Below the pieces are notes generated by a model, which was not told the origin of the DNA, made no database searches, and was given only the letters and a program-made list of their open reading frames with translations. Below, one piece after another: positions 35,225 through 43,186 of a stretch of 64,000 nt of DNA (positions within the stretch are counted from its first letter, which is position 1; each line of letters opens with the position of its first letter). Origin of the DNA: an uncultured Bacteroidales bacterium (GTDB lineage Bacteria > Bacteroidota > Bacteroidia > Bacteroidales > UBA932); contig CALVDO010000004.1 of the NCBI GenBank assembly GCA_944326355.1, positions 62,001-126,000 of the forward strand. The letters are read 5' to 3'. The translations under genes and the position numbers were made by a program.

Positions 35225-36706
35225 TCAGGCCCCAGCTCCGAGAAAGGCCATCGCCTCCGACACGACATAAGTGCTCCCGCCCACATAAATCAGCGGTGCA
35301 GCTCCGTCTGCCGCCCCGGACCGCCTATCCCGCATCCCGGAGACAACATCCAGCGCCAGCCGCATGGCCTCCGGAACGGTGCCGGCCGAAAGGACCGTGT
35401 CTGACCGGACCGGCCGATACGCCTCAAATTTTTCTTTCAGAATCTTTGCCGGACAGGCTCTTCGCCCTTCCGCGCTCGTAAATATCAGCGTCGCACCCGA
35501 CGGAATCAGAGGAAAGACCGACTCGTAGTCCTTGTCTGCCACAGAGCCGTAGACAATCACAAGCGGATCGGCCTCTCCCGAAGCCAGCATGTCGGCAAGA
35601 CGGGCAAAATTGTATTTCAGACCGTGGGCGTTGTGCCCTATGTCGCAGATTATGCGCGGGTCTTCCGAAACGAGCTCCCATCTGCCGTGCAGCCCCGTCC
35701 ATGACGCCGCATGGACAATCGCGTTCTCCACGGCATCCTGTTCCAGAGTCCACTTCCGGCGCAAGACGTCGACTGCCGCAAGAACGGTCCTGAGATTGCG
35801 GATCTGGTATGAACCCTGCAGATCCATCGACGCGAGAAGATCGCCATGCCTCTCCCATCCCGAAGGGACGGTCTTGTCGGCGAAAGTCAGCAGGCCCATG
35901 ATTCTTTGCGACTTTCCCATGTAAGTCGGATCCGACGAATTGGAATACAGAACCTTGCGTCCGAACACCGGATCAGTCTCCGGATCGCTCTCCCCCACTA
36001 CCGCCGGGACTCCGGGCTTGATGATGCCCGCCTTTTCAAAGGCGATTTCCGGAAGCGTGCCGCCGAGCATGTCGCAGTGGTCGAGCCCTATATTTGTAAT
36101 TATGCTGAGCACCGGAGTGACGACGTTGGTGCTGTCCAGACGGCCTCCGAGCCCTGTCTCTATCACGGCCACATCCACTTTCTTCCCGGCGAACCAGTCG
36201 AATGCCATCGAAGTGGTTATCTCGAAAAAGGAAAGGTCAAGATGGTCAAAAGTCTCCCTCCATCTGCAGACGAAGTCCCACACTTCCCGCTTACTTATGA
36301 GCGACATGTCCGGAGGCATCCCTGCCGAAGCGCCCCGACCGTCCACGATACGCATTCTCTCCCTGAAGTCCAGGATATGCGGAGAGGTGTAGAGGCCCAC
36401 ACGCAGGCCGGAAGACGCAAGGACAGCCGCAAGCATACTGCACACAGACCCCTTGCCGTTGGTGCCGGCGACATGAACGCATGGGTATTTCTCATGCGGA
36501 CGCCCGTTGAGACTGTCAAAAAACTCCATGCCCGCAAGACCGGGCTTATATGCCGAGGCCCCGTCTCTCTGAAATGACGGGAATCTCACGAAAAGCCTCG
36601 AGATCATCTCTTCATACCCGGCCTCGGAGAACTCGTCCCCTGCCGCCCCGCTCCCGTCCGGCGAGGACACAGGCGCCTCTTCTTTCAAGTCAAAGCCTTC
36701 TTTCAT
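35225..36706 (-). CDS. folC: folylpolyglutamate synthase / dihydrofolate synthase
   Basis: Adds glutamate to dihydropteroate and folates in the cytoplasm. The P-loop region HVAGTNGKGSVCSML, the following LYTSPHILDFRERMRI, IETGLGGRLDSTN and ITNIGLDHCDMLG are classic FolC/Mur-ligase-like motifs. CDIGHNAHGLK lies in the C-terminal domain. The ATG at 36706 is used; a TTG at 36724 would add six residues. The first 30 residues are acidic and not family-typical, so translation might start later. It is divergent from the PurL-like gene (92 bp between starts). Confidence 0.95.
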   Translation of the reverse strand: MKEGFDLKEEAPVSSPDGSGAAGDEFSEAGYEEMISRLFVRFPSFQRDGASAYKPGLAGMEFFDSLNGRPHEKYPCVHVAGTNGKGSVCSMLAAVLASSGLRVGLYTSPHILDFRERMRIVDGRGASAGMPPDMSLISKREVWDFVCRWRETFDHLDLSFFEITTSMAFDWFAGKKVDVAVIETGLGGRLDSTNVVTPVLSIITNIGLDHCDMLGGTLPEIAFEKAGIIKPGVPAVVGESDPETDPVFGRKVLYSNSSDPTYMGKSQRIMGLLTFADKTVPSGWERHGDLLASMDLQGSYQIRNLRTVLAAVDVLRRKWTLEQDAVENAIVHAASWTGLHGRWELVSEDPRIICDIGHNAHGLKYNFARLADMLASGEADPLVIVYGSVADKDYESVFPLIPSGATLIFTSAEGRRACPAKILKEKFEAYRPVRSDTVLSAGTVPEAMRLALDVVSGMRDRRSGAADGAAPLIYVGGSTYVVSEAMAFLGAGA

Positions 36707-36761
36707 GTCAACAAGTCTATACAATCATGCGGGATTGCTCCCGAAACATTTGAACTGACGC

Positions 36762-36798: not shown

Positions 36799-38013
36799 AT
36801 GAAGGAGAATTCAGCCGCTTTATATTCTGAGTACATCATTGACGGGATGAGGATGGACGAGACACCGGCTCAGATGCTCGGCGAGTGCATGGCCAGAGAC
36901 TGTTCCGAAGAGAGTACGCGCAAGTCCGCGCCGGCAGGACAGATCATCGACGAGAGCAGGGATCCGACTCCGGGGCAGACAGTCCCCGACGAGGCGGAGA
37001 CAGACAGCTATCTGCAGAAGATCCTCGCGCTGAACAAAAAGGAGCGCGGATTTCTCCTCACCTGCCCGGACTTCTTCACAAGACTGAAGACAGCGTCAGC
37101 CGTCATCGACTGCCTATGGCTCGAAGGCCATTTCCGCCTTGAGAACATCACGATGGACGCAAGATGGGAATGGGACTCCGCACCGGTCGGCAACATGACC
37201 GCGTTCTACGCTTCCGCCCGGGCGCTGAGCGAGTATGCTTACGACCTCGGCGTCACTCTTTCCGGCTTCGGATTCAGCGACTTGGCCGCAGAGCCGCGCA
37301 CGGAGAGACCGGATGGCGGCAATGGAGCTGAGGAGTGTCTGCTGAAGCTCCGCGTGACAGGCGCATGCGACAGAAGCGTTCCCGATCCGGAAGAAGAAGA
37401 CCTTGAGACAGGAAAGGACGCAGCGATCCCGCACCGCAACGGCATCCGTCTCGAAATGAGACGCAGATGCGCAGACACTGCCGTCGCGGATCCGAAAAGC
37501 CGCCTCCTCTACATCCCTTTCGACACATGCCGACACAGGCTCGGAGGCTCGCTCCTCGAACAGGTCACAGGACCGCTGGGGGATCCGACGCCGGAAATAC
37601 GCGACCCCGACTACTTCATGGACTGCTTCGAAGTCTTGAGGGAACTGGCCGAGGACGGCATCATCGCCGCCGGAGTCACCGTATCTGACGGGGGCCTGCT
37701 AACGGCTGCGTCAAAGATGTGCTCGGAGACCGGAGCTGACCTTGACATCAGCGGCATAATGTCTTCCTATATGGAAAAAGACATGATCAAAATCCTCTTT
37801 GCCGAGATTCCCGGCGTCATAATCCAGATACGGGGCGCGGACTTCGATTATGTGGACTCCCAGCTGCTGCTTCAGGACATAGCCTACTACCCCATAGGAA
37901 GCCCATGCACGAAGGACGCGAAGGTGACGGCCGGCAAGACGTCAAGACAGGGAGTCGCCGGAATCCTCGCCGCCCTGATGTACGGACAGGGACCGTCAGA
38001 GGGAGAGGACTGA
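36799..38013 (+). CDS. PurL-derived protein (AIR-synthase-like fold), probably not a FGAM synthase
   Basis: The 404-residue protein matches the third quarter of large-type PurL (FGAM synthetase). Residues 105-160 (LENITMDARWEWDSAPVGNM, then FYASARALSEYAYDLGVTLSG) follow the PurL segment that begins VKLSANWM. Residues 230-375 follow the AIRS C-terminal domain: HRLGGSLLEQVTGPLGD, VSDGGLLTAASKMCSETGA and FAEIPGVIIQIRGADFDYVD. The glutaminase domain, the PurS-like part and the first AIRS half are missing. The catalytic loop after LSG (GKDSMSM in PurL) is not kept, and HDRSDGGL has become VTVSDGGL. It ends 48 nt before phoH on the same strand. Its role is unknown. Confidence 0.7.
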   Translation: MKENSAALYSEYIIDGMRMDETPAQMLGECMARDCSEESTRKSAPAGQIIDESRDPTPGQTVPDEAETDSYLQKILALNKKERGFLLTCPDFFTRLKTASAVIDCLWLEGHFRLENITMDARWEWDSAPVGNMTAFYASARALSEYAYDLGVTLSGFGFSDLAAEPRTERPDGGNGAEECLLKLRVTGACDRSVPDPEEEDLETGKDAAIPHRNGIRLEMRRRCADTAVADPKSRLLYIPFDTCRHRLGGSLLEQVTGPLGDPTPEIRDPDYFMDCFEVLRELAEDGIIAAGVTVSDGGLLTAASKMCSETGADLDISGIMSSYMEKDMIKILFAEIPGVIIQIRGADFDYVDSQLLLQDIAYYPIGSPCTKDAKVTAGKTSRQGVAGILAALMYGQGPSEGED

Positions 38014-38061
38014 AGCCGGCATGACTTGGGAAATGACACTGAACAGATAATAGCCACAGCA

Positions 38062-39444
38062 ATGAAAAGGAACGACGGATCATCAGTTGGAAGTCATGGA
38101 GGCAAGCTTCCCAAGATATTTGTCCTCGACACCAACATCATTCTGCATGACCACAAGGCCATACACCACTTTCAGGAGAACGACATCGTGATCCCTATCA
38201 CGGTTCTGGAGGAGCTCGACAAATTCAAGAAAGGGCACGAAGCCCTCAACTTCAACGCGAGGGAATTCATGCGCGAGATTGACAAGCTCTCAGAAGACAG
38301 CAACTTCAGCCGCGACGGGGCGTCCCTCGGCAGACACAGGGGCAATCTGCGCGTCGAGCTCAGCCACCCGTTCCCGGAGGCCCTCAAAGGCTGCTTCCAG
38401 GACGACATCCCGGACCACCGCATCCTGTCGACCGCCATCTGGGTCAAGGAACAGAATCCGGACAGATTCGTGGCCCTCGTCACGAAAGACGTCAACCTGA
38501 GGATGAAGGCAAAGGCCGTGGGCATGGAGGCGCAGGACTACCTCACCGACAGAGTGGAGGAATCCCGTCTGGAATACACGCGCAACGAGGTGATAGTCAA
38601 GGAAGACCTGCCTCAGGAAAAGATCCAGAGCCTCGCATACGGACAGGGAGGCATCCCTTACAGGGACGTGAGCGACGAAGAGCCGATGCCTAACCAGCTG
38701 TACCAGTTCAGATGGGAGAAGGGCGCGGACTCGTTCGTCACCTGCGCGAGGTACGACTGCCGCCAGAAGAGGATCATCCTCGTCAAGGTAAGGCACGCGT
38801 GCGGAATATCGCCGAGAAACGACGAGCAGAAGTTCGCCCTCGACGCCTGCCTCAACCCGGACATTAAGCTCGTCTCCCTGACAGGAGGAGCAGGCACGGG
38901 AAAGACCCTGATCGCCCTCGCCGCAGCCCTTGAACAGGAGCACGACTACGACCAGATCATTCTGACCAGGCCGACGATAACCCTCGGCAATCAGGACATA
39001 GGCTTCCTTCCGGGCGACCAGAAAAGCAAGATGGGGCCGTTCGTACAGCCTCTGCTGGACAACCTCAACGTCATCCGCAACTGCTTCAGGCCGGGCAGCC
39101 GGCAGGTGCAGAAGATAGACGCAATGCTCAAGGAGGAGAAGCTGCTCATATCGCCCCTCGCCTACATCAGGGGACGAAGCCTCGGAAAGGTGTACTTCAT
39201 CATCGACGAGGCGCAGAACCTCACCCCGCACGAGACCAAGACCATAATCACCCGTGCCGGAGAGGGGACGAAGATGGTGTTCACTGGCGACATCTTCCAG
39301 ATAGACCAGCCATATCTCGACATGTATTCCAACGGGCTCACGCATCTCGGGGAAAAGATGGCGGGACAGCCGCTGTTCGAGCACATAAACCTCAGAAAAG
39401 GCGAGAGAAGCGAGCTCTCCGACATTGCGAGCCGCCTGCTCTGA
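38062..39444 (+). CDS. phoH: PIN-PhoH ATPase (PhoH2 type)
   Basis: Fusion of a PIN ribonuclease domain with a PhoH RNA helicase/ATPase. The PIN part (about residues 15-150) has IFVLDTNIILHD and later acidic residues in DDIPDHRILSTA. The PhoH part has Walker A GGAGTGKTLIALAAALE, TRPTITLGNQDIGFLPG and Walker B VYFIIDEAQNLTPHE. The ATG at 38062 is chosen; the longer frame starts with TTG at 38026. PhoH2 proteins act on RNA and can work as toxin-antitoxin-like units with an upstream partner; here the upstream gene is PurL-like, not a known PhoAT. Confidence 0.95.
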   Translation: MKRNDGSSVGSHGGKLPKIFVLDTNIILHDHKAIHHFQENDIVIPITVLEELDKFKKGHEALNFNAREFMREIDKLSEDSNFSRDGASLGRHRGNLRVELSHPFPEALKGCFQDDIPDHRILSTAIWVKEQNPDRFVALVTKDVNLRMKAKAVGMEAQDYLTDRVEESRLEYTRNEVIVKEDLPQEKIQSLAYGQGGIPYRDVSDEEPMPNQLYQFRWEKGADSFVTCARYDCRQKRIILVKVRHACGISPRNDEQKFALDACLNPDIKLVSLTGGAGTGKTLIALAAALEQEHDYDQIILTRPTITLGNQDIGFLPGDQKSKMGPFVQPLLDNLNVIRNCFRPGSRQVQKIDAMLKEEKLLISPLAYIRGRSLGKVYFIIDEAQNLTPHETKTIITRAGEGTKMVFTGDIFQIDQPYLDMYSNGLTHLGEKMAGQPLFEHINLRKGERSELSDIASRLL

Positions 39445-42637: not shown

Positions 42638-43186
42638 ATGAAATTATTGCCATACCAGGAAGTTAAAGACAAGATTATCCACTTACGAGAACAGGATGTA
42701 ATTCTGGACTTCGCAGTGGCCGAACTCTACGGCGTGGAAACAAGGGAGATAAACCAAGCAGTGAAGAATAATCCCAACAAGTTCCCGGAAGGATATGTGT
42801 TTGAGATTGACAAACAAGAATTTGCAGATTTGCGATCAAAAAATTTGATTGCAAATAGTCCGAAAAGCCGTACAATCCCTAAAGCATTTACGGAAAAGGG
42901 CCTGTACATGCTGGCGACAATCCTCAAGGGAGACAAGGCCACAGATACAACCATCGCCATCATTGAAGCATTCGCAAAGCTGAGGGAGCTGTCACGCACT
43001 ATCGGGGAACTGGCAGCAAATCCGGATCAATTTACGCAGAAATCGCTCATGCAGAAAAGCGGTGAGATTATGGCCGACCTGTTCGGAGAGGACATGCAGA
43101 CAAGCGAGACGGAAACGGAAATCGAACTCAATTTCGCCGTACTGAAGCTGAAACACACGATAAAGAGGAAAGACAAGAACAAATAA
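42638..43186 (+). CDS. ORF6N domain protein (phage antirepressor-like)
   Basis: The 182-residue protein begins with a complete ORF6N domain: VKDKIIHLREQDVILDFAVA, then AELYGVETREINQAVKNNPN and FPEGYVFEI, and AFTEKGLYMLATILKG. ORF6N is a DNA-binding domain common in phage antirepressors and in mobile elements of Bacteroidota, related to KilA-N. The C-terminal 60 residues are helical and charged. The gene lies alone between two copies of the ppdK 3' end, with base composition more AT-rich than ppdK, so it was probably acquired. No integrase is beside it. Confidence 0.88.
   Translation: MKLLPYQEVKDKIIHLREQDVILDFAVAELYGVETREINQAVKNNPNKFPEGYVFEIDKQEFADLRSKNLIANSPKSRTIPKAFTEKGLYMLATILKGDKATDTTIAIIEAFAKLRELSRTIGELAANPDQFTQKSLMQKSGEIMADLFGEDMQTSETETEIELNFAVLKLKHTIKRKDKNK

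Follow-up and report, generated by a model that had tools for sequence, protein, structure and literature searches.

The 404-residue protein described here was derived from the large form of the purine enzyme PurL, has lost the catalytic residues, and has been conserved across a bacterial genus. It is near certain that the protein is a pseudoenzyme, defined as a conserved enzyme homolog in which the catalytic residues are lost, and it very likely does a new, non-enzymatic job. We favor the reading that this is a neofunctionalized pseudoenzyme that would act as a soluble acidic adaptor or inhibitor for a putative partner, and we assign that reading a probability of roughly 0.55. The gene lies within a 64,000-nucleotide stretch of DNA (the window), where it and its two neighbors are placed as follows.

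36799..38013, + strand: gene for the PurL-derived pseudoenzyme of 404 aa, an intact ORF with an ATG start
35225..36724, - strand: folC, the divergent neighbor that marks the ancestral folC-purL-phoH2 locus (Pfam; sister-genus loci)
38026..39444, + strand: PIN-PhoH (PhoH2) gene, a neighbor judged to be outside the function of the short gene (Pfam)

The sole Pfam match of the protein is AIRS_C (residues 252-340, E 5e-6). Models of large PurL are its top NCBIfam matches, lying over AIRS2_C (residues 229-374), and PRK05297 was matched in that search at E 2.6e-23; searching the PDB also led to the second AIRS half of large PurL. The anatomy was then read from an alignment to E. coli PurL and five Bacteroidales PurLs. 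By this alignment the protein is a mosaic of PurL pieces. In order, these are the first AIRS1_N strand (FxIDG), a segment of linker, the W-x-W-bearing second part of AIRS2_N and, beyond a variable linker, AIRS2_C.

36820..36888, + strand: residues 8-30, remnant of the AIRS1_N start (LYSEYIIDG..., where PurL has RHKIFNxxFIIDG; alignment to E. coli and family PurLs)
36943..37011, + strand: residues 49-71, linker taken from the PurL linker preceding AIRS2, with D51 and E52 invariant and Y71 conserved (alignment)
37078..37281, + strand: residues 94-161, second part of AIRS2_N, with W123xW125, G131 and Y137 kept (alignment)
37453..37908, + strand: residues 219-370, AIRS2_C domain (Pfam AIRS_C; structure match to StPurL)
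37675..37698, + strand: residues 293-300, VTVSDGGL, a degenerate HDRSDGGL (alignment)

Within the AIRS1_N remnant, I14, D15 and G16 are invariant or nearly so among the short forms. An earlier, sequence-only reading of the window had described the protein as the AIRS-like middle part of PurL only. This is correct for the second AIRS half, which is kept, but part of AIRS2_N is deleted and a short piece from the start of AIRS1_N is present as well. The same reading was right that HDRSDGGL is altered, as E. coli PurL residues 883-890 correspond to VTVSDGGL with H883 and D884 lost. It had also described a changed catalytic loop, while the alignment shows that the whole catalytic first half is absent and not mutated.

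The losses are extensive. The short form has lost the N-terminal domain and almost all of AIRS1, H296 included, together with the beginning of AIRS2_N, where residues 678/679 lie, and the glutaminase. Where the catalytic half of AIRS1 would be, the H296 region is deleted in the aligned members and the Gly loop (307-318) is unrecognizable. Neither Pfam nor NCBIfam gave a GATase match in the 404-aa ORF, which stops just past AIRS2_C. For the Mg-ADP site of the second half we used residues 678/679, E718, N722, D884 and S886, numbers that we take to be those of the StPurL/E. coli annotation. Of 31 PurLs, 30 have the whole Mg-ligand set E718/N722/D884; of the 50 short homologs aligned, none does. 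The segment holding 678/679 (first part of AIRS2_N) is deleted in these homologs, H883 and D884 are never retained among the 50, and S886 is retained in 18 of the 47 short proteins from the genus. Judged by its residues, the short form is without the parts needed for FGAM synthesis or for holding Mg-ADP as PurL does.

These residues also bear on the proposal of the sequence-only reading that the protein senses purine nucleotides and works with PhoH. A sensor would draw on the ADP of unknown function that StPurL holds in its second half, the active site being in the first (PMC3815217), and phoH2 does adjoin the short gene. However, none of the 50 short homologs aligned has an intact Mg-ligand set, their 678/679 segment is deleted, and the short gene is kept both where phoH2 is missing and where purine synthesis is missing, as described below. 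We regard such a sensor as distinctly improbable.

The short form descends from a native large PurL of the TIGR01735 type and not from the TIGR01857 PurL that the genome also encodes. The 404-aa protein matches TIGR01735/PRK05297 and not TIGR01857 in NCBIfam, and the short forms make up a single clade in the tree (100/100 support). Among the sixteen loci with flanking sequence from sister genera of this family, nine have a full-length TIGR01735-type PurL directly before PIN-phoH, and in the one sister-genus locus read whole, folC is divergent on the far side of the full purL. Because sister genera have full purL between folC and the same phoH2, the short gene stands at the ancestral purL locus. 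In the family sample, the short form accompanies a TIGR01857 PurL in all 11 genus genomes and all 3 sister-genus genomes, and most other genera have a full TIGR01735 PurL, or a small PurL plus a separate PurQ. As a locus control, TIGR01857 replacements in other genera were inspected in nine genomes; eight of these had no phoH2 match, and other genes flank it in the ninth.

Two other origins were considered and rejected. A copy of the genome's own PurL is ruled out by type (TIGR01735 versus TIGR01857). A frameshifted full PurL at this site is likewise ruled out, as only 74 bp lie between folC and the short gene and relatives have either a full PurL or the same short form. The full PurL in relatives, which the sequence-only reading would have taken as the sign of a gene split by frameshift, was found, but it reflects shared ancestry at the locus.

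Some variation in these loci was also observed. In L044 the genes run short gene-phoH2-ppdK-folC, which means that folC has shifted to the other side, and in L043 the region upstream of the short gene likewise yielded no folC. In genus g10 (G009, G029, G089, G100, G143) the full TIGR01735 PurL is apparently split, with two ORFs on different contigs covering approximately profile positions 33-640 and 642-1307.

The short gene is present in 97 of 101 sampled Candidatus Cryptobacteroides genomes, including 46 of the 47 high-quality ones, and also in the sister genus (g18); the relatives named here are MAGs. Across a sample of 393 Bacteroidales genomes, short forms occur only in Cryptobacteroides among the matches listed, the others being full-length PurLs or larger pieces. 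Those listed matches include a few frames of 598-999 aa outside the genus, which exceed the short form in length and may have been truncated at contig ends. In close species pairs, dN/dS of the short gene is 0.03-0.12, with similar values for folC and phoH2 in the same pairs, and no stop codons were found inside the short-gene matches of the 101 genus genomes searched. The gene is under purifying selection, and because it is carried so widely at such low dN/dS, its presence is not due to chance or decay; here the sequence-only reading, which called the gene intact and not decayed, was borne out. A gene that derives from a replaced enzyme and adjoins phoH2 upstream might be suspected of being a relic in decay, retained solely as a leader translated ahead of phoH2. 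We find this hardly credible, given that its dN/dS is about as low as that of its neighbors, its matches are free of stop codons, its tail is conserved at the protein level, and it is kept where phoH2 is gone.

A full purL is present elsewhere in the genome, as the sequence-only reading had thought worth checking, but it is of the other type (TIGR01857, 1721.7 bits). This PurL is full length, glutaminase included, and lies within a purE-purK-purL-purCF-purM cluster, in which purE and purK were named from reading the ORFs. The cluster also has a PurC-PurF fusion, where a single 721-aa ORF (L048:3472-5637, - strand) matches purC and then purF. In a tree without an outgroup, the TIGR01857 PurLs of the genus (L095-L110, L048:5796-9599) form two lineages that group with different other genera, which suggests at least two horizontal acquisitions.

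TIGR01857 PurL is missing from 34 genus genomes, 32 of which are also without PurM and PurD by family-level scores. PurD was found by the same search in six of six PurL-bearing genomes that served as a control. Incomplete genomes may give some false absences, but ten of the genomes lacking PurL have a completeness of at least 90%. Because PurL, PurM and PurD are all missing in 32 genomes (G154, G168, G186, G200, G203, G216, G221, G226, G227 and G234 among them), de novo purine synthesis has very likely been lost in about one third of the sampled Cryptobacteroides. The short gene is kept in 32 of the 34 genomes without TIGR01857 PurL and in 30 of the 32 without all three enzymes. Its retention is independent of purine synthesis, and the purine-linked function suggested earlier does not hold. 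The same counts weigh on the idea that the short protein serves the acquired TIGR01857 PurL as a subunit or regulator, much as PurS supports small PurL. The two genes do co-occur in most genus genomes, but the persistence of the short gene in genomes without that PurL, nearly all of them also without PurM and PurD, argues against a shared task, as does the fact that the acquired PurL is full length with its glutaminase and came from two lineages within the genus. We consider this role very improbable.

The PIN-PhoH gene directly follows the short gene on the same strand, as had been seen from the sequence, and the pair is conserved. In 77 of the 78 genus genomes having both genes, phoH2 directly follows the short gene on one strand at a spacing of -38 to 116 bp; in the lone exception the two are on different contigs. 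This adjacency is inherited, because full-length purL fills the same place before phoH2 in sister genera. In 19 genus genomes the short gene occurs without a detected phoH2, although in incomplete genomes some absences may be artifacts. The short-gene locus continues into ppdK with no phoH2 in G181, G221 and L037-L039, and phoH2 is absent from the stretch read at the locus in G234. Signature residues of the short protein, and its C-terminal tail, are nearly all unchanged in genomes without phoH2 and in those without purine synthesis. Retention of the short gene is independent of PhoH2, and the joint work with PhoH that the sequence-only reading proposed is not supported.

An acidic protein made just upstream could also be a PhoAT/VapB-like antitoxin or regulator that masks the RNase of the PhoH2 PIN RNase-helicase. 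The tight, same-strand spacing and the strong acidity of the short protein (pI about 4.4) are consistent with this, and in mycobacteria PhoH2 is partnered by the small PhoAT, encoded upstream (PMC7390352). However, full-length purL holds the same position in sister genera, and the short gene persists in the genomes where no phoH2 was detected; at the loci that run into ppdK, the signature residues and the EGED tail described below are kept in those checked. We consider an antitoxin quite unlikely.

Two further features were observed near these genes. L037, L038, L039, L060, L061, L063 and L066, from lineages without phoH2 at this place, share sequence around TAAATTCGCG in the gap that separates the short gene from the next gene downstream, possibly a promoter element. 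Downstream of ppdK, the window encodes an ORF6N-domain protein (phage regulator type) at 42638-43186 on the + strand.

What the short form has gained was assessed by comparing 50 short forms with 31 PurLs. Residues that are invariant in the short forms of both genera but variable in PurL fall on two elements of AIRS2_C, the invariant or near-invariant positions being D271, D275, E278, E282 and D286 along helix 270-286; and D348, Y351, D353, L358, Q359, A362, Y363 and P365. These elements and the C-terminal tail are placed as follows.

37603..37656, + strand: residues 269-286, helix on which an acidic face is newly conserved (D269, D271, D275, E278, E282, E285, D286), invariant or almost so in pseudo-PurLs and mostly variable in PurL; helix 270-285 in the model
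37846..37893, + strand: residues 350-365, new conserved motif DYxDxxxxLQDxAYxP, here DYVDSQLLLQDIAYYP (comparison of short forms with PurL)
37999..38010, + strand: residues 401-404, conserved C-terminal tail EGED, with which 46 of 48 complete genus proteins end

The AIRS2 part carries a net charge per 100 residues of -8.2 in the short form versus -3.3 in PurL. Because the synonymous codons of EGED vary among the genus genes, the constraint on the tail acts on the protein. The sister genus lacks the tail, as do two genus proteins, and EGED was therefore not part of the original function. An EGED-like end was found on none of the other window ORFs among 190 frames of at least 100 aa. A Shine-Dalgarno or RNA cause of the tail was considered and ruled out, since synonymous codons vary and the tail stays where phoH2 is gone. 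An AlphaFold model of the short protein, built from 12 sequences (mean pLDDT 71, pTM 0.74), has its best matches among PurL structures, reaching Z 26 against StPurL (1T3T) over residues 209-972.

We propose that in-frame deletions shortened the native large PurL (TIGR01735) of the folC/phoH2 locus in an ancestor shared by Cryptobacteroides and g18. The short gene was then maintained under purifying selection. The AIRS2 fold may present the acidic helix face, the DYxDxxxxLQDxAYxP element and the exposed C-terminal EGED tail to a partner. The acidic face and tail would bind a partner that is probably basic and occurs genus-wide, making the short protein an adaptor or inhibitor. For this putative adaptor mechanism the odds are about even.

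The conserved acidic cluster could instead bind metal or serve as a newly evolved active site. D242, D269, D271, D275, E278, E282, D286, Y351, D353 and Q359 are conserved in both genera and mostly not in PurL, as would suit a D/E/Y/Q cluster of AIRS2_C that binds metal and does new chemistry. However, most of these residues are spaced along helices, which, by secondary structure only, suggests a surface rather than a pocket, and there is no hint of a substrate or operon; we think such a site unlikely. It is conceivable, though unlikely, that a purine enzyme was remodeled to carry out new biochemistry or to take a central place in regulation, whether through a new metal or active site or as a genus-wide hub, and was kept genus-wide even after purine synthesis was lost.

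Returning to the pseudoenzyme itself, the locus offers a clean natural experiment in which a core metabolic enzyme became a non-enzyme. Sister genera still carry the ancestor at this position, a PurL of another type has taken over from the original enzyme, and roughly one third of the genus genomes sampled keep the remnant after losing the pathway. The short gene is an uncharacterized conserved gene of a gut genus that has received little study, and its AIRS/PurL matches and phoH adjacency can mislead annotation and pathway calls. The literature searched gave nothing relevant on PurL pseudoenzymes in Bacteroidales and no description of the short form.

Among known systems, PurM, SelD, ThiL and HypE share the AIRS/PurM fold (structure matches at Z about 15-16), but these are ATP-using enzymes, and the short form has half of AIRS2_N deleted. 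The mycobacterial PhoAT-PhoH2 pair is alike in that a PIN-PhoH gene is immediately preceded by another gene (PMC7390352); however, PhoAT is short and VapB-like, whereas the short form is a PurL derivative that occurs without phoH2. Large PurL, or FGAR amidotransferase (TIGR01735, PRK05297; StPurL 1T3T), is the direct ancestor, as seen in the AIRS2 fold, the W-x-W, GG and LFxExPG motifs, and the ancestral locus beside folC and phoH2. Compared with that enzyme of about 1240 aa, the 404-aa short form lacks the AIRS1 catalytic half, the glutaminase and an intact Mg-ADP ligand set, and has gained an acidic face and a C-terminal tail of its own. In kind, the nearest precedent is found in the vFGARAT proteins of gammaherpesviruses (e.g. 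ORF75; NCBIfam TIGR01739), PurL homologs without enzymatic activity that act via protein contacts (PMC5691659). Those are viral tegument proteins of near full PurL length by the family model, some of which recruit the host PurL enzyme, whereas the short form comes from bacteria, is only a third as large, and persists in cells that have no PurL at all.
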